38,922 bases of DNA from a virus. The DNA lies in IMG/VR virus record IMGVR_UViG_3300000956_000034, positions 1-38,922 of that record. One strand, 5' to 3'. The notes beneath the pieces are model-generated. The model did not search any database. It saw only the letters and a list, made by a program, of their open reading frames with translations, and was not told the origin of the DNA. Below are positions 1-38,922 of the stretch, piece by piece (position 1 is the stretch's first letter; every line of letters begins with the position of its first letter). Both the position numbers and the translations under genes were made by a program.

Positions 1-39
1 GTTCTGGGGGGGGGTCGGTAGACTTCCGACCCACCCCCC
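1..39. repeat. Left copy of the 39-bp terminal direct repeat
   Basis: Bases 1-39 are identical to bases 38884-38922, and the genes on either side run the same way (minus strand) as one continuous late block. The window is therefore a closed circle with a 39-base overlap, or a linear genome with a very short terminal repeat. An overlap of one assembly k-mer would look the same, and that is the simplest reading. Confidence 0.85.
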
Positions 40-1914: not shown

Positions 1915-2528
1915 GCGAATAGCCTGCCTTGTGCTTGCGCCCGCCCTATCCGCTCGCATGCGATATCAAAATATCGCTCGTTCAATTCGACGCCGATAAA
2001 GGGCCTGCAAAGATTCGCGCAGGCCACGCCCGTGCTTCCGCTGCCCATGAATTGGTCACAAACGGTGCCGGACGTCATAGCGACACACCATGCCATGAGC
2101 GCGACGGGCTTTTGCGTCGGATGAATTTTTCCTTCTGCCGCGAGCTGTCCGCGTGAGTAGTTGAATGCTCTTACGGGCTGATCCAACGTGGTCCAAGCAA
2201 GTTCGCAGTGTCCGCTGCTGAAATCTCGCTGCAGCTTGTCCCACACGAGCCAACCGCGTGAGGGCGGAAACGGGTAATAGTTCCCTCCCCATACGATCGC
2301 TTGCGTAAACCGCGTAAGTGAGTCGACAAGACCGGCCACCGGCGCTTGGTCCCATGCCATGCCCTCCGCTATCAACGGCCACTGAGGGCCGTTCTGCCAT
2401 TTCGCATCGCCGAGCCCATAGGGCGGATCGGTCACGATGGCGTCAATTCCTTCGATGCTCGGCAGGATCTCGCGGCAATCGCCCAGATATAACGTCGCAT
2501 TTTGCAATGTCACGACGCGATGTTTCAT
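1911..2528 (-). CDS. DNA methyltransferase (DPPY, N6-adenine type)
   Basis: A 205-residue methylase. The catalytic motif IV is TDPPYG (DPPY at 34-37) and the AdoMet-binding motif I is FMGSGSTG (160-167), preceded by KIHPTQKPVALMAW, so the order is catalytic then cofactor motif, as in beta-class enzymes. DPPY favours adenine-N6 modification. It would protect phage DNA from restriction or mark sites for regulation. It is coupled by 4-base overlaps to the nuclease gene upstream (2525-2971) and to the hypothetical gene downstream. No target-recognition domain of its own is obvious, as expected for this compact size. Confidence 0.92.
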   Translation of the reverse strand: MKHRVVTLQNATLYLGDCREILPSIEGIDAIVTDPPYGLGDAKWQNGPQWPLIAEGMAWDQAPVAGLVDSLTRFTQAIVWGGNYYPFPPSRGWLVWDKLQRDFSSGHCELAWTTLDQPVRAFNYSRGQLAAEGKIHPTQKPVALMAWCVAMTSGTVCDQFMGSGSTGVACANLCRPFIGVELNERYFDIACERIGRAQAQGRLFA

Positions 2529-2971
2529 CGCGAATGTTCCTTTTGCCAGCCGCGCGATTCCAACACCTGCGTCAGGTAGCGGATCGCGTGGCCGTGTCGT
2601 ACGTGATCGGTCGTGAAGCGCAGAACGTGATAGCCGAGGTAGGCTGCATCATTCGCCTTGTCGATGTCACGCAGGATTGCGCTCGGATGTGAGTGCGCGC
2701 CGCCGCCACGACGCCAGATGCCGCCGTCGATCTCGATGAGTAGCCGATACTCGGGATACGCAAAATCAGCCTCCCACTTGCGCCCGAGGACTTGCCGCGC
2801 GAATAGAAATCTTCGCCTGATCGCGGGCAAGCCGGAGGCTTTCACCACGAGCGCGAATGTATCCTCGCTGGATTGACCATGCTGCGCGTGTCGCTGCGCG
2901 CGCATCCATGCGCGCCCGACCACGGAGGTCGTGACGGTGCCGGCCAGTGTGAGCTGTCGCGGCGCTCTCAT
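2525..2971 (-). CDS. DUF559/Vsr-like endonuclease
   Basis: A 148-residue protein with a PD-(D/E)XK-type core: E36 in SSEDTFA, the arginine-rich RRRFLFARQVLGRKWEADF strand (D69), and the diagnostic LLIEIDGG (E80, D82), followed by RDIDKANDAAYLGYHVLRFT, which matches the DUF559/Vsr arrangement (very short patch repair-like nucleases). It ends four bases inside the methyltransferase gene, so the two are translated together. It may act as a repair nuclease for methylation-linked mismatches, or as a cutting partner of the methylase. Confidence 0.8.
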   Translation of the reverse strand: MRAPRQLTLAGTVTTSVVGRAWMRAQRHAQHGQSSEDTFALVVKASGLPAIRRRFLFARQVLGRKWEADFAYPEYRLLIEIDGGIWRRGGGAHSHPSAILRDIDKANDAAYLGYHVLRFTTDHVRHGHAIRYLTQVLESRGWQKEHSR

Positions 2972-3192
2972 CGCGGTGGCTCGATGCTCGGGGTAATGTA
3001 TATTTCAATTTCCACGCGGGCGCGTTGTTGCGTCATGTGCAGTCCGCCGCTCGTGCACGCGCCGACCGTCCACGGGCCGGGCAACAGATCAAACAAACGT
3101 TTCGCGGTCTCCAGACAACGTGCATCCGGCGGCGTCGCGTCGTAGCCATCCCAGCCGCGCGGTAACTTGCGCAATCGTGAGAAGTGATCCAT
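2968..3192 (-). CDS. Small hypothetical protein with GWDGY motif
   Basis: A 74-residue protein, MDHFSRLRKLPRGWDGYDAT at the start, followed by a helix and a strand-rich end. The LPRGWDGYDATPP block (residues 10-22) is a recurring signature of small uncharacterised proteins in phages and bacteria. It overlaps the nuclease start by four bases. No enzymatic residues can be assigned. Confidence 0.6.
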   Translation of the reverse strand: MDHFSRLRKLPRGWDGYDATPPDARCLETAKRLFDLLPGPWTVGACTSGGLHMTQQRARVEIEIYITPSIEPPR

Positions 3193-5321: not shown

Positions 5322-6230
5322 ATGACACTCACTGCGCGACAAAAAGCCGAACGCCTCACGGGCGTCGGTGCGAGTGAAGTCCTGGCCGCCCTCGGGAAAG
5401 ATCCCCGCTGTACGCCGCTTGTGTTGTATCAACGCAAGACCGGTGAGAGCACTGCGCCCGAGCTAGAGAATGATCCGCGCGTGCATTTTGGAACCTTGCT
5501 CGAACCCGTGTTGCGTCAGGAATTCGCGCGCCGCTCCCACTTGCGCGTGATTCAACGACGCAACACGTTGCGACATCCGACGGCGCCGCTGGTCGGTCAT
5601 CTCGACGGATGGATTCCGGCGCGCAAGTGTGGGCTGGAAATCAAAACGGCGGACCGATACGAGGCGGACGATTTCGGCGAGGAAGATACCGACCAAGTTC
5701 CGCTGCGATACTTTTTCCAGTGTTCCGCCTACATGGCGATCACCGGCGCCGCCGAATGGTTTCTGGTCGTGTTGATCGGCGGGAACGACTATCGCCAATA
5801 TCACCTAACGCGTCAGCCCGAGCTGGAGGACATGATGCTGACGGCGGTGCATCGCTTCTGGTGGCATGTGGAACACGCGTCGCCGCCCGCACCGATCACG
5901 CCCGAGGACGTCCGTTTGCGGTGGCCGCGTGATCTCGGAAGCGCCATCCTCGCGACCGATATGATCATCGGCACCACCGCGCATCTGAGCCAATTGCGTC
6001 ACGACTTACAAACATTACAGCGCGAATATGACGAGGATCTTGTCAGCGTCCAGAAGTTCATGGCGGAGAATGCCGAGCTGGTCGGCCCCGAGGGCCGTCT
6101 ATTGGCCACGTGGCGAACCGCGCGCGCGTCACGACGCCTCGACATCAACGCGCTCACGAAAGATCATCCTGAACTAGCGGCGCAATACATGCGCGAGATT
6201 CCGGGCTCGCGTCGTTTTCTACTCAAGTAA
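5322..6230 (+). CDS. YqaJ-family viral recombinase (exonuclease)
   Basis: A 302-residue protein of the lambda-exonuclease/YqaJ fold. Visible features are TGVGASEVLAALGKDP (14-28), FGTLLEPVLRQEFARR (E61, 56-71), GHLDGW (D95), LEIKTA (E106, K108) and YFFQCSAYMAITG (130-142), which give the E/D-E-x-K metal site and the conserved glutamine strand. It degrades one strand of duplex DNA ends to feed the RecT annealase encoded 1 kb downstream. Residues 215-250 form a predicted coiled coil (LSQLRHDLQTLQREYDEDL). It is the first gene after the early promoter. Confidence 0.93.
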   Translation: MTLTARQKAERLTGVGASEVLAALGKDPRCTPLVLYQRKTGESTAPELENDPRVHFGTLLEPVLRQEFARRSHLRVIQRRNTLRHPTAPLVGHLDGWIPARKCGLEIKTADRYEADDFGEEDTDQVPLRYFFQCSAYMAITGAAEWFLVVLIGGNDYRQYHLTRQPELEDMMLTAVHRFWWHVEHASPPAPITPEDVRLRWPRDLGSAILATDMIIGTTAHLSQLRHDLQTLQREYDEDLVSVQKFMAENAELVGPEGRLLATWRTARASRRLDINALTKDHPELAAQYMREIPGSRRFLLK

Positions 6231-6248: not shown

Positions 6249-6440
6249 ATGGACGAAGAACCCGCATTAGAACCCTGCCCCGGCTGCGGTGCCTTGATTC
6301 GTTGGGTCGATGGCATCGCGTTAGATCCCGGCGAAGGTACGGTGCGCGCGCATCGGGACCGGTGCGTTCATCCCGATGCAGTAACCGTTCGACGCGTGGC
6401 CCGCGCTGATCTCGACGGCGGAGGAAGTGCCAATGGCTAG
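6249..6440 (+). CDS. Small zinc-binding hypothetical protein
   Basis: A 63-residue protein with CPGCG near the N-terminus and HRDRCVHPD further on, a C2-H-C-type arrangement that likely binds zinc. AAGGAAG precedes the ATG at 6249. Its last residues (AVTVRRVARADLDG) are repeated almost exactly at 7050-7091, beyond the next gene, where they continue into a different, longer ending. This indicates that the present C-terminus was created by insertion of the downstream gene. Confidence 0.65.
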   Translation: MDEEPALEPCPGCGALIRWVDGIALDPGEGTVRAHRDRCVHPDAVTVRRVARADLDGGGSANG

Positions 6441-7035
6441 CGGTTACAACGTCAGCGGGCGCGGCGATCTAGATACGCTGTTCATGGCGCGGCAGAGTGC
6501 CGCGCGGGCGAATGTCGGCTTCACGGTTGCAGGCGTTGATCTCGCGTCGCGCTTCGAGCCGATCGGCAGCGCGACGCCGATTGCCGCGACTGGGTTCCGT
6601 GCGGTCTCTGCGGATCTTGCGACGCTGTTTCGTGACATCAATCAGCCACTGCAAGCCGTCCAGATCAATGACGCCACATTGGACGCCGTAAACAATTCGA
6701 TTGTTTGTCAGGCAGCGTACTCGCTCAATCAAAATGGTCACATCGACACGACGGTCATCGCCGGCGCGAATCCCGATCTGGGCAATTGGATCACTCCGGT
6801 ATCCGCTGCGCCCGGCAGCTATCGCGCACGCGCTACACAGGTGTCATCTGCCGGCAGCGGAACCAAGATCGGCACGCTGGCCAGCTGGCTGGCAATCAGC
6901 AGTAGCCCGAGTTGGGCGCTGGATACCACCTCCGCGGATCAATCGCAGTGGGTCCTAACAATCGAGATCGACAACGGCGCCGGCCTCGTTCTTGACTCCT
7001 GCCAGCTGACATTGCGGGCGCGCTGGGGCGTGTGA
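6433..7035 (+). CDS. Hypothetical protein with DLxxxF repeats, likely inserted cargo gene
   Basis: A 200-residue protein, starting MASGYNVSGRGDLDTLFMAR, with three repeats of a D-L-x-x-x-F motif (12-17, 36-41, 61-66), each after a Gly/Ser turn, followed by a beta-rich, Ser/Thr/Asn-rich domain. The pattern resembles virion-associated or decoration-type proteins rather than recombination enzymes, yet it lies between exonuclease and annealase. GAGGAAG is placed correctly for the ATG at 6433. It overlaps the end of the preceding gene, is flanked by duplicated sequence and is followed by a strong terminator, all features of a moron. Function unknown. Confidence 0.6.
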   Translation: MASGYNVSGRGDLDTLFMARQSAARANVGFTVAGVDLASRFEPIGSATPIAATGFRAVSADLATLFRDINQPLQAVQINDATLDAVNNSIVCQAAYSLNQNGHIDTTVIAGANPDLGNWITPVSAAPGSYRARATQVSSAGSGTKIGTLASWLAISSSPSWALDTTSADQSQWVLTIEIDNGAGLVLDSCQLTLRARWGV

Positions 7036-7049
7036 GGTGATGAAACATT

Positions 7050-7195: not shown

Positions 7196-7280
7196 GGCCC
7201 GGCCGGGCGCGGCTCGGCTCGGCAGGGCTTGGCGTGGCTGAGGCGGGGGGTCCATTGACCAACGGCGGAGGAAACATTGC
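7196..7280 (+). repeat. Solitary GGCNN unit plus punctuation block upstream of recT
   Basis: Nine consecutive perfect GGCNN pentamers (7196-7240) lead into GGGGTCCATTGACC and AACGGCGG, the same block that punctuates the array at 9034-10012. Here the block ends in GGAGGAAACATTGC, the reverse orientation of the array's AATGTTTC, and this provides the recT ribosome binding site (GGAGGA) before the ATG at 7281. Confidence 0.85.
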
Positions 7281-8276
7281 ATGGCGGCGCGTACACAAGT
7301 TCAAGCGACGAAGTTAAGCGACGAGCTATTGCGGCTGGAACAGCAGGTAACGAGTGTCCTACCCGCGCATGTCGGGATGAATAAATTTCTGCGCGTGGTC
7401 GCCACCGCTTGGCGTGCACCGGAGATTCGTCGCGCGAATCGTTTGTCTCTGTTCTCCGCTGCAATCAAATGCGCGCAAGACGGACTACTACCCGACGGCC
7501 GCGAGGCCATTTTTACCGTATATAAAACCAAGGACCGCGCCACCGGTAAGGCGGTCGAGGTCGTTGAGTATCAACCGATGTGGCGCGGCATTCTCAAGAG
7601 CGTGCGCAATAGCGGTCAATTGTTTTCCGTCTCCGGCAATGCGGTGTTTGAGCGCGATGAGTTCCAATGCTGGACCGACGATGCCGGTGACCACATCTTG
7701 CACAAGCCGAATCTGTCCGCGCCGAATCGCGGCGCGGTGTGCGCGGCGTACTCGATCGTCAAAACGACTGACGGCGGCGTGTATACGGAGGTGATGACAC
7801 GCGAGCAGATCGAACAAGTCCGCGCGTGCAGTAAGAGCAAAGACGGCCCGGCGTGGTCGCGTTGGTACGATGAGATGGCGCGCAAAAGCGTGTTCCGGCG
7901 CTTGAGCAAACGCTTGCCGATTTCCTCGGAGCTGGAGCGCGTACTCGCCCGAGGTGATGCAGCGATGTCATCGAGCGACGCAACGCGTGTCGAGCGCAGC
8001 GGCGCCGAGGCGGCCCGGCATCTGCTCGCGTCCGCTCTCGATGACAACGCGCCTACCACCACCACGGAGGAAACATTGCCGGCGCCGCGCTTCGATGAGG
8101 CGAGCGCGTTGGAACATCTGAGCGCGGCGCGTGACGCACAGCAGTTGCGCGATGCGTGGATCGATATTACGACGGACTACTACGACAACAGGAATATTGA
8201 AGTCCCGTTAGCTGTCGAGGCGCATTTCAAAGATCGGCTGGAAGGCTTCACGCAGCAACCCGAGTCCAGCGATTGA
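7281..8276 (+). CDS. recT: RecT-family single-strand annealing protein
   Basis: A 331-residue protein with the RecT core: NKFLRVVATAWRAPEIRRAN, SLFSAAIKCAQDGLLPDGREA, YQPMWRGILKSVRNSGQL and RWYDEMARKSVFRRLSKRLP (about residues 33-215). It binds single strands produced by the YqaJ exonuclease and anneals them to complementary DNA. The C-terminal 100 residues are a variable linker, including TTTTEETLPAPRF, encoded by a second copy of GGAGGAAACATTGC (8066-8079), and a terminal helical region. The start is fixed by the GGAGGA at 7267-7272. Confidence 0.93.
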   Translation: MAARTQVQATKLSDELLRLEQQVTSVLPAHVGMNKFLRVVATAWRAPEIRRANRLSLFSAAIKCAQDGLLPDGREAIFTVYKTKDRATGKAVEVVEYQPMWRGILKSVRNSGQLFSVSGNAVFERDEFQCWTDDAGDHILHKPNLSAPNRGAVCAAYSIVKTTDGGVYTEVMTREQIEQVRACSKSKDGPAWSRWYDEMARKSVFRRLSKRLPISSELERVLARGDAAMSSSDATRVERSGAEAARHLLASALDDNAPTTTTEETLPAPRFDEASALEHLSAARDAQQLRDAWIDITTDYYDNRNIEVPLAVEAHFKDRLEGFTQQPESSD

Positions 8277-8307
8277 CTCTACTTTCACTCAACCGAGCGC
8301 ACCCCTT

Positions 8308-9033
8308 ATGAAACCGAAATCACGAACGGAATCGATCGGCGCCAGCAAAGCTACTGGCAACGGCAATATGCAAACGTATGCGGTCACCATTACTGGCCGC
8401 AATCCGTTACTCATGCATCACGACAATATCGAATGGGCCGATGAAATGGCCGAATGGCGCACCGTGCCGGAGAATCGCAAAGGCAGTAAAGCGGGCGATG
8501 ATCGCTCGCCAGCGTGGCGTTGGCTCGGCGCGCTGTATCACGACGGCGAACGCATCGGCATCCCGGCAGCGAACGTAATGCGCGCGATCATGGAAGGCGG
8601 TGCGCTCGTGCCGGTGCCCGGCGGTCGCAGCGGGAAAACCTTTCGGTCGCAGACTCAGAGCGGCATGCAAAGCGTGGAGCCCTTCTGGCCGCTGCGCATC
8701 GATGACGAGGAAATTCGCTGGGCGGATATCGCGCCGCTCGCCGGGGAGTCGAAGTTCATCACACAGAAGAATCGGGTTCGTGACTTGGGATTCGGTCTGC
8801 TCGTCAAGCGCGCGAAAATCGGCGCGACGAAGCACGTGCGCGTGCGTCCGATGTTTGCGCCCGGCTGGACCATCAGCGGCGCCCTGCTTGTATGGGATGA
8901 GCAGATCGATGCGCGCGCGTTGCAAACAATCCTTGCCTACGCGGGCCAGTACAAAGGGCTTGGCGACTGGCGGCCCGGCAGTCGCACGCCGGGCCCGTAT
9001 GGAACATTTGAAGTAGAGCTTTCTGCCGCGTGA
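8308..9033 (+). CDS. Uncharacterised phage protein with RAMP-like pattern
   Basis: A 241-residue protein. From residue 21 it reads MQTYAVTITGRNPLLMHHDN, then an insert, WLGALYHDGERIGIPAANVM, a segment with KHVRVRPMFAPGW, and GQYKGLGDWRPGS near the end. This order (I-x-G-x-x-P-L-L-M-H, IPxxN, RPxF..W, GLGDWRP) recurs in a widespread family of phage proteins encoded near recombination genes and looks like a ferredoxin-type RAMP fold. Function has not been established to my knowledge. The first 20 residues lack conservation and there is no clear ribosome binding site, so the start may be 8368. Confidence 0.65.
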   Translation: MKPKSRTESIGASKATGNGNMQTYAVTITGRNPLLMHHDNIEWADEMAEWRTVPENRKGSKAGDDRSPAWRWLGALYHDGERIGIPAANVMRAIMEGGALVPVPGGRSGKTFRSQTQSGMQSVEPFWPLRIDDEEIRWADIAPLAGESKFITQKNRVRDLGFGLLVKRAKIGATKHVRVRPMFAPGWTISGALLVWDEQIDARALQTILAYAGQYKGLGDWRPGSRTPGPYGTFEVELSAA

Positions 9034-10012
9034 TTAGACAAGGCGCCGCCGGGCACGGCGGGGCATGGCGGCGGCCGGGCTCGGCAAGGGGTCCAATGAC
9101 CAACTGCAATGTTTCCTATTTGATCCGGGCACGGCTCGGTAAGGCAACGCCAGGCATGCGCGTGGCATTGCGCGGCTCGGTAAGGCAAGGGGTCAAATGA
9201 CCAACGGCGGCGAATGTTTCTTTTCGGCCGGGCAAGGCTCGGCAGGGCAGCGCCCGGCAAGCGCGGGGCTTTGCTCGGCTTGGTAGGGCAAGGGGTCCAA
9301 TGACCAGCGGCGGCAATGTTTCTTGTGCGTGGCTCGGCGGGGCACGGCAGGCGCACGGCATTGCAGGGCACGGCAAGGTATGGCGCGGCGCGGGGTCCGA
9401 TGACCAGCGGCGGCAATGTTTCCTTGAAATGCGGCGTGGCACGGCGGTGCACGGCCGGGTCGGGCAGGCGCATGGCTCGGCAAGGCAAGGTCGGGCAAGG
9501 GTCGGGCGTGGCGTGGGGTCCAATGACCAACGGGCAGCAAATGTTTCTTTCGCGGCATGGTACGGCATGCCAAGGCGAGTCAAGGCGAGGCGAGGGGTCC
9601 GATGACCAGCGGCAAGCGAATGTTTTTTTGCGGGGCTTGGCAAGGCGTGGCCTCGCTTGGTTTGGCTCGGCGAGAGCAAGGCAAGGGGTCCGATGACCAG
9701 CAGCGGCGTCAATGTTTCTTTCTGGCGCGGCTCGGCTCGTCTAGGCAGGTGCTCGGCATGCCATGGCCCGGTCGGGCGTGGCGTAGGCAAGGGGTCAAAT
9801 GACCAACGGCGGTGCAAATGTTTGTTTGGGGCGAGGCGAGGCAAGGCTCGGCACGGTGCGACGACGGCATGGTACGGCGAGGGGTCCAATGACCAACGGC
9901 GGCGGCAATGTTTCTTCGCGTGGCCGGGCTCGGTCAGGCTAGGCGCGGCCGGGCGCGGCTGGGCACGGATGGCTCGGCAGGGCGAGGGGTCCAATGACCA
10001 ACGGGCAACAAA
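9034..10012 (+). repeat. Punctuated GGCNN pentamer array (ten blocks)
   Basis: About 980 bases without a credible gene. Ten blocks of GGGGTC(C/A)(A/G)ATGACC start at 9088, 9189, 9292, 9392, 9515, 9594, 9685, 9791, 9881 and 9986 (spacing 79-123 bp). Blocks 1-9 continue with CA(A/G)C..GGC and AATGTTTC/T; the tenth runs directly into the ATG at 10013. Each block holds the inverted repeat GGTC-N4-GACC (GGTCA-AA-TGACC in blocks 2 and 8). Between blocks are 35-70 bases of GGCNN pentamers in which GG and C are kept and the two N vary freely. Open frames crossing it on both strands are artefacts of the repeat. Confidence 0.9.
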
Positions 10013-10528
10013 ATGAGCGAACAGAAACAATATTATTCCTTTCGTGACGGCTTGCCGACGGCGCCCGATGTCACGGCGATTCAACAGCGCTGGCCAGACT
10101 TGCGCGTCGGCGACGAAATACCCTATTCGGAGATAGCCGCCCTCCTCCAGATCGACATAGGCTCGCCTAGATTCAAATCGGTGACGCATGCGTGGCGCGA
10201 ACGAGAGCGCGAGCAATCGCGCGTCATCGAATGCGTTCGCTCGCGTGCATTCGTGGTCGCATCCGCCGAGCAGGTATCATCGGCCACTCATGAAGTAATG
10301 CGCGGTATTGCCCGCAAGGCGCGACGCCAGCGCACCAAGCTGGTGACAGTCAGAACCGAGGATGATTCCTTGCGCACTGTGCTGTTACATCATGCCAATC
10401 TCATGCACACAATCGAGCGCGAATCGCGCCGGCAGCGGATGAACTTGATACCGGCCAGCGTGGCCACCGTGCCGCAGATGTCGCCGCCCAAGTTAACGCA
10501 GGAGGCAGACCATGGTCAGGATAGATAA
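10013..10528 (+). CDS. Hypothetical protein downstream of the array
   Basis: A 171-residue basic protein. Residues 15-60 (LPTAPDVTAIQQRWPDLRVG, then PYSEIAALLQID) look like a small HTH/winged-helix segment, and the rest is helical and arginine-rich (IARKARRQRTKLVTVRTED). Its ATG follows the last punctuation block immediately, with only GGGC upstream as a weak ribosome binding site, so expression may depend on the array. A DNA-binding role is plausible but unproven. Confidence 0.6.
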   Translation: MSEQKQYYSFRDGLPTAPDVTAIQQRWPDLRVGDEIPYSEIAALLQIDIGSPRFKSVTHAWREREREQSRVIECVRSRAFVVASAEQVSSATHEVMRGIARKARRQRTKLVTVRTEDDSLRTVLLHHANLMHTIERESRRQRMNLIPASVATVPQMSPPKLTQEADHGQDR

Positions 10529-10733
10529 CCCGCAGAATATTTCGCTGTCGATGTTTGAAGACATCCATGGCATCTGGGCAAAGCGATGGTGCTTTGTCGC
10601 GCGTGTCCGCGTGGAATTCAACGACGGTCGGGAACCGATGTTTCTAACGCCGGCAGAGTACAAGGCCCTGCCCGCGATCGTGACCGCCGCGATTTGCCGC
10701 GCGCCATCGAGCCCGCCGGCGGTGCCCGCGTGA
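10512..10733 (+). CDS. Small hypothetical protein
   Basis: A 73-residue protein (MVRIDNPQNISLSMFEDIHG at the start, then WCFVARVRVEFNDGREPMFL). It begins inside the end of the previous gene with AGGAGG just upstream (10499-10504), a strong ribosome binding site. The strand-rich centre and proline-rich end do not match any family I recognise. Confidence 0.65.
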   Translation: MVRIDNPQNISLSMFEDIHGIWAKRWCFVARVRVEFNDGREPMFLTPAEYKALPAIVTAAICRAPSSPPAVPA

Positions 10734-11083
10734 GTACGTATGTCATCCGGCTCATCGGGTTGGCCAGCGGAGCGCCGCCGCCGTGGCCGGATGGAGTAAC
10801 GCGGTACGTACGCGCTTACTGCGCTGACGGATTCGGCGGGCGCGGTATGCTCCAGGTAACGGACCGTATCGATGAGGCGCGCCAGTTCGCCAGCGTCGGC
10901 GACGCGATCGACTGTTGGCGCGCCGTCAGTCAGACGCATCCGTATCGAATGGACGGGCGCCTCAATCGACCGATGACCGCGTTTAGCGTGGAGCTGACGC
11001 CGCTGGATCGCGCGCGCGACACGCAGTCCACCGCCGACACCTCTGCTGCTCCTGTTGCCGTCAAACGTCCGGCCCGCTCATGA
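10730..11083 (+). CDS. Hypothetical protein
   Basis: A 117-residue protein starting at the GTG that overlaps the preceding stop (GTGA at 10730-10733). It reads (M)STYVIRLIGLASGAPPPWPD, then TRYVRAYCADGFGGRGMLQV and DEARQFASVGDAIDCWRAVS. The pattern of a short strand, glycine turn, and a helix with FASVGDAIDCWRAVS is common in small phage proteins that have no assigned function. It is coupled at both ends by 4-base overlaps. Confidence 0.65.
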   Translation: MSTYVIRLIGLASGAPPPWPDGVTRYVRAYCADGFGGRGMLQVTDRIDEARQFASVGDAIDCWRAVSQTHPYRMDGRLNRPMTAFSVELTPLDRARDTQSTADTSAAPVAVKRPARS

Positions 11084-11286
11084 GCAGCATCCAGCGCTCG
11101 GCAGTCTTCGCGGTGCCATTGGCGGAGGCGGCGCGTATGGTGGGTGTCACGCGCGCAAAGTTTTATTCGTTGTATGTTCGATCCGGACGCGTGCGACCTA
11201 TCACACAGGGGCAATCACGCGTGATCGACGTTGAGGAACTGCGCGCAGCATATGAGCAAATGCGGGACGAATCCCGGCAAGGATGA
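11080..11286 (+). CDS. Excisionase/MerR-like HTH protein
   Basis: A 68-residue protein with PLAEAARMVGVTRAKFYSLY (13-32), then VRSGRVRPITQGQSRVIDVEEL, the winged-helix layout of Xis/MerR-type DNA-binding domains: HTH, then a wing that reads the site, then the (I/V)D..EL strand-helix. It may be an excisionase or a small regulator. Its ATG overlaps the previous stop. Confidence 0.7.
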   Translation: MSSIQRSAVFAVPLAEAARMVGVTRAKFYSLYVRSGRVRPITQGQSRVIDVEELRAAYEQMRDESRQG

Positions 11287-11292
11287 TTCACG

Positions 11293-11514
11293 ATGAGTAG
11301 GCAAAGCGATGGAGTCATCGAAATCGTTGCGCAGATGGCGCCGATTCTCTCGGGTCATCCGCCCGAGATACAAGGCGCGGCGCTCGCGGATCTGCTAGCG
11401 ATCTGGCTCGCCGCGCACCCGGAAGAATTGCGTGCGGCGGTCTTGCGAGTCCATCTCGAATACGTCCACCAATTGGTTCCACTGAATGCAACGCTGATTA
11501 AACTGCAAAGCTGA
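11293..11514 (+). CDS. Small helical hypothetical protein
   Basis: A 73-residue, almost wholly helical and neutral-to-acidic protein (MSRQSDGVIEIVAQMAPILS, then IQGAALADLLAIWLAAHPEELR). Proteins of this look lie next to excisionase genes in many prophages, but no function is assigned. AAGGATG lies 9 bases before the ATG. Confidence 0.6.
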   Translation: MSRQSDGVIEIVAQMAPILSGHPPEIQGAALADLLAIWLAAHPEELRAAVLRVHLEYVHQLVPLNATLIKLQS

Positions 11515-11520
11515 AATGCC

Positions 11521-11727
11521 ATGCTACTCGACACGAAAGAAGCCGCGAAGTATTTGAAATTAGGCCGCAGCACTCTGCACAAGCTCCGCCAATCCGGCGG
11601 TGGTCCGGCCTTCAGCAAGTTAGGGACGCGTGTTGTTTATGAATTGACCGATCTGGATGAATGGGCAGCGGCACGCCGCTGCACATCCACCGCCGATTAT
11701 GCCGCGCGTCAGGCGCGGCGCCGCTGA
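11521..11727 (+). CDS. AlpA/Xis-type helix-turn-helix protein
   Basis: A 68-residue protein, MLLDTKEAAKYLKLGRSTLH, then KLRQSGGGPAFSKLGTRVVY and ELTDLDEWAAARRC: the standard HTH_17 excisionase fold (LDTKEAA.YL.....TL..LR..G.GP.F.KLG.RV.Y...DLD.W). This family includes excisionases and AlpA-type activators. It converges on, and overlaps by 19 bases, the integrase gene, consistent with controlling excision. Confidence 0.85.
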   Translation: MLLDTKEAAKYLKLGRSTLHKLRQSGGGPAFSKLGTRVVYELTDLDEWAAARRCTSTADYAARQARRR

Positions 11728-13079
11728 AGCGGAATGACGTTGGTTTGTTTCTTCTTGGGTGTGTCGGGCGGTACATCCGGCGCGGCGTGCGATTGCAGAA
11801 ACCGCCCCACTGTATCCACGGCCTTCTGTTTTGGTTTGTTGCTCAATGCCATGTAAACCCGGCCGGTCACCGAGGATTTATGGCCGAGGGTTGCGCCCAC
11901 TTGTTTCTCCGAGAATCCGTCATCGCCGAGCCAGGAGCCGAACGTACGGCGCAGATCATGCACGGTAATGTCGGGGAAGCCTGCGCGCGTGCGGATACGA
12001 TCCCAGGCCTTATTAACTTCCGAGAGCGGGCGCCCTGATTTGTAGCCGCAGAAAATATAGGGATTATTGGCCAGTCGTTTTAAGCCTGATAACCACTCAA
12101 GCGCATAGTCGGACAGCGGTACAGTGCGGTCAATGACGACTTCTTGTTTGTTCTGCGACTTCGTACCGCGAAAGGTAATCGATGCCGGCGCGGTCAGTCG
12201 CACGTTTTCCCACTTCGCCGTGCGCAACTCCGTCTTGCGGCAGCCGAGTGAAATGAGCACGTGAAAGAATGCCCGCATATAGGGATCGGTGGTCGCGCCG
12301 CGAACATTGCGGAACGCCGCGCCGTTGCCGGCCTTCAAGTCCTCGTGTCGCTTCGGCGATGTTTCCTCCGCAATCGCATCAACGAAAGCGGGCCAGTCCT
12401 CTTGCTCGATGCGGATTTGCCGATCTTTCAGCTTGAACTTTTTAATCCCGGCGCAGGGGTTGCGGACGTCCAAGCGATGCTCCGTTGGCGTCTGCCCGCG
12501 CGCCTCATCGTCGGAGAAAATCCGCCAATAGATCGCGGCGGACAGATCCGCAAATATCAAATTGGCTTGCGCGCGGCTGCGCTCGCCGTTCTTCTTGAGC
12601 CATGCACGCACTTCCGGCCGCGTGAGCGTACGCCACGGACGCTCGCCGAGTTCCTTGTACAGATAGAGCTTCGCGCGCGCCCGGTTAGCGTCGGGATCAG
12701 CGTGCGGCGTACTCGTGAGCCATGCTTCGTGGAGCTGTTCAACCGTATCGGTTTCCGCGTCGAGCTTCCGCGCCTTCCGATCGGCCAGCGGGTCGACCGC
12801 TTCCACGCTAAGCAGCCTGCCGAGTCGGATGCGCGCGTCCTGTTCCGCTTGTTCTACCGTCATGACGCCGTAATCGGCCAGCGTCATCAACTTCTCGCGG
12901 CCGTCGGGCGCGACGTATCGCAGCACCCACGCTTTCGCGCCGCTCGGATACAGCCGCAGGCCCAGCCCTTCCGGGTCGGTGTGCCATCGGATGTCCTTGG
13001 TCTTGCGCGCGGCGTTGCCTTCATACTGCGCCTTCTTTACGTACACAGCCGTCAATCGGATCGATGTGCGTTTACCCAT
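11709..13079 (-). CDS. int: Tyrosine integrase
   Basis: A 456-residue integrase. The N-terminal DUF4102 arm-binding domain is DIRWHTDPEGLGLRLYPSGA and KAWVLRYVAPDGREKLMTLA; the SAM-like core-binding domain follows (about 110-200); the catalytic domain has SLGCRKTELRTAKW (catalytic Arg), a strand with K, ITVHDLRRTFGSWLG (H-x-x-R) and LGHKSSVTGRVYMAL (H and Tyr). The ATG at 13079 starts MGKRTSIRLTAVYV. It inserts the phage at a tRNA-Lys gene using the attP directly upstream. Confidence 0.95.
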   Translation of the reverse strand: MGKRTSIRLTAVYVKKAQYEGNAARKTKDIRWHTDPEGLGLRLYPSGAKAWVLRYVAPDGREKLMTLADYGVMTVEQAEQDARIRLGRLLSVEAVDPLADRKARKLDAETDTVEQLHEAWLTSTPHADPDANRARAKLYLYKELGERPWRTLTRPEVRAWLKKNGERSRAQANLIFADLSAAIYWRIFSDDEARGQTPTEHRLDVRNPCAGIKKFKLKDRQIRIEQEDWPAFVDAIAEETSPKRHEDLKAGNGAAFRNVRGATTDPYMRAFFHVLISLGCRKTELRTAKWENVRLTAPASITFRGTKSQNKQEVVIDRTVPLSDYALEWLSGLKRLANNPYIFCGYKSGRPLSEVNKAWDRIRTRAGFPDITVHDLRRTFGSWLGDDGFSEKQVGATLGHKSSVTGRVYMALSNKPKQKAVDTVGRFLQSHAAPDVPPDTPKKKQTNVIPLQRRRA

Positions 13080-38689: not shown

Positions 38690-38917
38690 TCAGTCCTCAC
38701 GTTGCGAATGGATGTTTGTGGATGCGTCGCTGCGCGCGTAGGGAATTAACCGCTCGATCGGCCACCGTTCGACGTGAGTCCGCTGGCCAAGGCTGGCGGC
38801 GGCGTTCATTCGGCCTATCCCGTGTTTTTTATTTGCCGGACCCGAGGGTTTTTCCGCGGGTGCAAAAATTCGACTTCGAAGGGGTTCTGGGGGGGGGTCG
38901 GTAGACTTCCGACCCAC
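38690..38917 (-). pseudogene. Truncated ParB-like N-terminal domain
   Basis: The frame (75 residues; a more likely start is the ATG at 38809) contains HVERWPIERLIPYARSDAST, which is the opening of ParB/Srx-like nuclease domains found in phage ParB-methylase genes (v..w.i..l.PYa.N.R.h). Instead of the expected continuation, which carries the domain, it ends after NIHSQRED in TGA. It lies directly upstream of TerS, where complete ParB-methylase genes occur in related phages. Probably a remnant, although a short expressed peptide cannot be excluded. Confidence 0.6.
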
Positions 38918-38922
38918 CCCCC
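38884..38922. repeat. Right copy of the 39-bp terminal direct repeat
   Basis: Identical to 1-39. The full G9/C9 hairpin is complete only at the left end (nine C), because this copy stops after six C, as expected for a contig closed on itself. Confidence 0.85.

Follow-up and report, generated by a model that had tools for sequence, protein, structure and literature searches.

We asked what is encoded by the array of GGCNN pentamers and conserved blocks at positions 9034-10012 of the window, the whole 38,922-nucleotide stretch of viral DNA analyzed here (IMG/VR record IMGVR_UViG_3300000956_000034). A sequence-only reading had taken this array to be undescribed. However, a preprint of April 2026 describes VIPR (Viral Interference Programmable Repeat; PMC13142463). 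VIPR comprises a phage RAMP protein together with guide RNAs, each of which carries 9 to 16 GGY/NN repeats before a structured 3' tail; the NN bases pair with DNA, one base being skipped per unit, and competing phages are repressed (PMC13142463). We are highly confident that the region is a VIPR locus, in which + strand vrRNAs would be carried by Vipr as guides and target genes would be repressed. What doubt remains concerns expression and targets, not identity. The locus represents an independent sighting of VIPR from raw sequence, with eleven guides in one phage.

The record carries terminase, portal, and major head genes, which identify a tailed phage. Since it has a 39-bp exact direct terminal repeat (window 1-39 and 38884-38922), it is probably complete and circular or terminally redundant, though it is classed as linear. 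On the + strand, a gene for a RecE-like exonuclease (5322-6230) is followed by an ORF (6427-7035), an upstream guide (7196-7280), recT (7281-8276), vipr (8308-9033), the array (9037-10012), and vap (10013-10528). The sequence-only reading was right that the array is noncoding, under selection, and not CRISPR: the repeat unit is a pentamer, CRISPR repeats and spacers are absent, and no cas genes were recognized among the neighboring proteins searched. Similarity searches returned no match for the array in phage records and none for 8000-12000 in plasmid records.

A pattern scan found ten exact copies of GGGGTC-N-R-ATGACC in the array, as had been claimed, and none elsewhere in the window on either strand. 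One more copy, the eleventh, had been overlooked at 7247-7260; its loop differs slightly (GGGGTCCATTGACC). Each block directly follows a tract of GGY/NN units on the + strand. Guide 1 has 10 units (9037-9087; tail hairpin, 9088-9101), guide 2 has 12 (9128-9188; hairpin, 9189-9202), guide 3 has 13 (9226-9291; hairpin, 9292-9305), guide 4 has 13 (9326-9391; hairpin, 9392-9405), and guide 5 has 16 (9433-9514; hairpin, 9515-9528). Guide 6 is the shortest with 8 (9554-9593; hairpin, 9594-9607), followed by guide 7 with 10 (9634-9684; hairpin, 9685-9698), guide 8 with 13 (9724-9790; hairpin, 9791-9804), guide 9 with 10 (9830-9880; hairpin, 9881-9894), and guide 10 with 14 (9917-9985; hairpin, 9986-9999, directly before the vap start codon). 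The upstream guide, guide 11, was found by sequence and by array detection and has about 10 units (7196-7246, +), namely GGCCC, GGCCG, GGCGC, GGCTC, GGCTC, GGCAG, GGCTT, GGCGT, GGCTGA, and GGCGG; its tail (7247-7280, +) consists of the hairpin GGTC-CATT-GACC and then the recT leader.

The claim that GGCNN pentamers with varying NN separate the blocks was borne out. GGY occurs at both i and i+5 63 times in 9034-10012, compared with 7.3 ± 2.5 times (maximum, 16) in dinucleotide shuffles, and runs of at least five units are absent from the rest of the window. Among cleanly flanked units, 15 of the 16 NN dinucleotides are present. Thus, the tracts match the 9 to 16 GGY/NN repeats with conserved GGY and hypervariable NN described for VIPR, here as 8 to 16 units that include off-phase ones. 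Contrary to what had been supposed, the periodicity is not strict: one or two units of 4 or 6 nt occur in each of nine array guides, all but guide 6, and in the upstream guide. These off-phase units are mostly of 6 nt and lie in guides 1-5 and 7-10 (9037-9985) and in the upstream guide (7196-7246), and the longest clean run is in guide 10; such units go unmentioned in the preprint's main text (PMC13142463). A 10-mer, GCAATGTTTC, stands after several array tails. Its reverse complement forms the end of the upstream tail and has three further exact copies. The sites are at window positions 7042, 7271, 8070, and 31670 (minus strand), and the copy inside recT lies within a 15-bp stretch that repeats the recT leader exactly.

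The gene next to the array encodes a RAMP-fold protein (8308-9033, +), in which the conserved N terminus of the family starts at 8368; the assignment draws on the profile, AlphaFold, Foldseek, and phrog_4652. The family profile gave a full-length match to PDB entry 36pp, "SUSP1 Vipr protein," with an E value of 1.6e-46. With the AlphaFold model (pLDDT, 96) as the query, the top Foldseek matches were nearly all Cas7-type RAMPs of type III (Csm) and type VII CRISPR systems, the best having an E value of about 1e-5. The C-terminal GLGDWRPGSRTPGPYGTF is kept across the family. The 36pp profile match, the RAMP fold, and the C-terminal motif together identify a RAMP homologue with an RRM core and a glycine-rich loop, as in VIPR. 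The window's Vipr belongs to a clade with 99% SH-aLRT support that is separate from the SUSP1-like clade. Felixounavirus VpaE1 has a Vipr N terminus nearly identical to that of SUSP1 and a matching layout of GGTNN tracts with hairpin tails. In Pseudomonas phage LESphi2 (L344 in our locus numbering; OQ594955; a prophage of P. aeruginosa LESB58), the Vipr gene is annotated as hypothetical, and at least three guide tracts with hairpin tails lie at about 2031-3085, between a gene annotated as a sigma factor and vipr.

We observed arrays of this kind beside vipr in other viruses. All five IMG/VR relatives of gene 8308-9033 (53 to 65% identity) have a GGCNN array directly after the stop codon; their block sequences differ, and one of the contigs has 51% GC. 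A scan of IMG/VR for eight pentamers returned at least 120 stretches; such arrays are common in virus contigs. When the neighbors of arrays were clustered, a single dominant protein family emerged, nearly always on the array strand. Of 126 array loci fetched from IMG/VR, 90 were positive with the Vipr profile, and 130 of 132 arrays lie on the vipr strand. Of 111 viral loci with degenerate arrays, 29 had no detected Vipr, in some cases because the array is at the contig end. In bacterial genomes, Vipr was found in 6 of 11 degenerate-array loci versus 0 of 108 loci of monotone GGCNN microsatellites (Fisher P = 1.3e-7). Vipr was not found in whole genomes of one class by a search that had no positive control, and this result is not used as evidence.

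The NN positions also set viral arrays apart from bacterial repeats. Because the scan of bacterial genomes used a 12-unit pattern, longer than that of the virus scan, the two can be compared in the kind of array but not in its frequency. Among the matches listed, the NN of viral arrays comes close to random sequence, at a median of 2.41 bits versus 2.75 over 8 units, with almost no memory between neighboring units. The bacterial matches are mostly monotone microsatellites with a median NN of 0.54 bits. The NN of pooled viral arrays is not fully random: the first N is a purine in 69%, and TA is depleted to 0.65 of expectation. Such a bias might arise if guides copied codon positions 1 and 2 of coding targets.

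The clade around the window provides clean covariation evidence for the tail hairpin. A 4-bp stem stands directly after the last GG in 109 of 130 distinct array ends from 45 clade loci, compared with a mean of 2.1 and a maximum of 7 in shuffles; stems at other offsets are much rarer among these ends, with 26 at the next offset. The stems have 20 different sequences across the clade. In ten gap-free tails, three of the four pairs have changes on both sides; these rows were hand-picked, and the count over 130 ends is the unselected test. Thermodynamic folding alone did not single out the hairpin. On this covariation, the block is the 3' tail hairpin of the predicted vrRNA, which agrees with the invariable structured 3' tail that follows the repeats in VIPR. 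The 12-bp palindrome GGTC-N4-GACC seen by the sequence-only reading is present, but it is kept as an RNA hairpin, not as a sequence. The structured transcript that had been offered as one option agrees with the predicted vrRNAs and their tail hairpins. Among loci L347-L407, all tails have one common stem in 14 of the 32 loci with at least two distinct tails, and stems vary between genomes. This sharing of stems within genomes and their difference between genomes suggest concerted evolution of the tails within a genome. In the window and 13 array loci, an Rfam search found no hammerhead ribozymes, which are known between guides in some VIPR types.

Could the array instead act as DNA? One possibility is that the pentamers are annealing tracts, the 5-nt period matching 5 bp per RecT subunit, and that arrays aid RecT in module exchange. 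Each LiRecT monomer does bind 5 bp, and the bases are stacked in groups of five (PMC9772228); recE and recT are directly upstream of the locus, and guides in close relatives appear to be exchanged as cassettes. However, of about 96 vipr loci, only 3 have a homologue of the window's RecT nearby, these homologues being the only RecT proteins searched for, whereas vipr adjoins the arrays in most loci, and arrays follow vipr in very different phages. A fixed GGC and a strand bias are also unexpected for a protein that anneals any sequence. We rejected the RecT footprint because RecT is rarely near vipr loci, and we consider it very improbable. An operator or centromere, in which the palindrome would be a DNA site for a protein, fits ten palindromic sites at a spacing of about 100 bp and the predicted winged-helix-like fold of Vap. 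It does not fit the free change of the palindrome sequence among relatives with its pairing kept (20 stems), the position of the palindrome directly after the last GGY/NN unit, or the adherence of arrays to the vipr strand, and its probability is similarly slight.

Monotone GGCNN microsatellites do exist in bacterial genomes, and the array could in principle be a simple microsatellite or an assembly artifact. The NN entropy and the linkage to vipr rule out a microsatellite: viral NN is near random with almost no memory between neighbors, and arrays and vipr are tightly linked. An assembly artifact, against which the sequence-only reading had cautioned, is refuted by the relatives, which carry arrays at the same position in contigs from independent metagenomes. 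We therefore give this explanation next to no weight. The VIPR reading also reverses the roles that had been assigned to the two parts of the array. The NN bases, regarded as a mutable linker between meaningful blocks, are the information in VIPR, with the blocks serving as invariant tails (PMC13142463).

Downstream of the array, vap (vipr-accessory; 10013-10528, +) encodes a predicted winged helix with long helices. In 16 loci including the window, mostly in the window's own clade, a gene of this family lies on the vipr strand downstream of vipr, so that the locus contains a vap accessory gene like those of VIPR. The model (pLDDT, 78) has a wHTH-like order of helices and strands, with weak fold matches only. 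Of the seven published VIPR types, the preprint lists DNA-binding vap genes for II, VI, and VII (PMC13142463).

We propose that the array is transcribed on the + strand into about ten vrRNAs, with one more from upstream of recT, each of which would consist of a variable tract of 8 to 16 GGY/NN pentamers and then a hairpin tail. Vipr subunits would sit along the tract, presumably at one pentamer per subunit. The protein would hold GGY, and NN would pair with target DNA, one target base being skipped per unit. Bound complexes would block transcription of target genes, most likely those of competing phages or satellites, and the Vap protein may assist, probably via DNA binding. Of this proposal, our analysis shows the gene family, the fold, the linkage of array and gene and their common strand, the tail hairpin by covariation, and the diversity of NN beside conserved GGY. 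The pairing rule and repression are taken from the preprint (PMC13142463), and we infer the expression, the subunit spacing, and the targets.

Then, which DNA do the guides match? Exact-seed scans of IMG/VR with guides 10, 11, 4, and 7 and a 1-nt skip gave 10 to 38 matches each, which is about the number expected by chance. All eleven guides were also compared, with a 1-nt skip, against both strands of the fetched loci, which comprise 5.8 million positions, and no convincing target was found. The best match was that of guide 11, with 20 of 20 NN bases, to a large tail-fiber-like ORF of locus L266; it is off the wobble positions of that ORF and is unsurprising given 28 seeds. Comparisons of 296 and of 455 guides with a few megabases did not reproduce the published skip rule. 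The absence of a target reflects a limit of the search, since it relied on exact seeds, few scans, and an unsettled reading of off-phase units.

Close relatives revealed how guides change. Among 65 clade loci, a set with near-identical vipr genes (L364-L376 and L393) has its guide slots upstream of vipr. At 99.8% vipr identity, L366 and L370 have neither slot 1 nor slot 2 in common. The pair L369 and L375 (99.1%) has the same slot 1 and a different slot 2, and the pair L367 and L370 (98.9%) has the same slot 2 and a different slot 1. Slot 3 does not vary among the loci in which it is readable. Between alleles, GGY positions are 72 to 91% identical and NN positions are 38 to 44% identical; slot-1 tails are at least 98% identical. 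Thus, slots reassort independently at 98 to 99.8% vipr identity, with nearly constant tails and leaders. On this basis, there is an even chance that guides are acquired and exchanged as whole cassettes and that retargeting is driven by recombination via tails or repeats and not by NN mutating step by step. Some slot-2 alleles have their last units in common, so that exchange or change occurs inside tracts as well. Guide gain is not treated in the preprint's main text (PMC13142463). Since these near-identical loci with their differing guides form natural series, the question of how guides are gained is directly testable.

We compared the locus with known systems. The microsatellites of bacterial chromosomes have in common with it a pentamer with GGC, but their NN is constant or of low diversity and no vipr is nearby. 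Like the RAMP complexes of class 1 CRISPR-Cas systems (Csm/Cmr and type VII Cas7), the locus encodes a RAMP fold with a glycine-rich loop, and its subunits presumably repeat along a guide RNA. Unlike them, it has no CRISPR repeats or spacers and no recognized cas genes, its unit is 5 nt and not 6 nt, and its code is noncontiguous. The closest likeness is to the type II VIPR of Escherichia phage SUSP1 (PMC13142463): both are phage borne and have a RAMP-fold Vipr of about 200 amino acids, GGY/NN guides upstream and downstream, a structured 3' tail, and a vap gene. The window differs in that its guides are mostly GGC and number about 11 versus 4 in SUSP1, and its tail begins with a 4-bp hairpin whose stem is genome specific, whereas the SUSP1 tail has a pseudoknot. 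Its Vipr and Vap group in a clade of their own, separate from the SUSP1-like one, the locus ends a recE/recT gene run, and many of its guides contain off-phase units.
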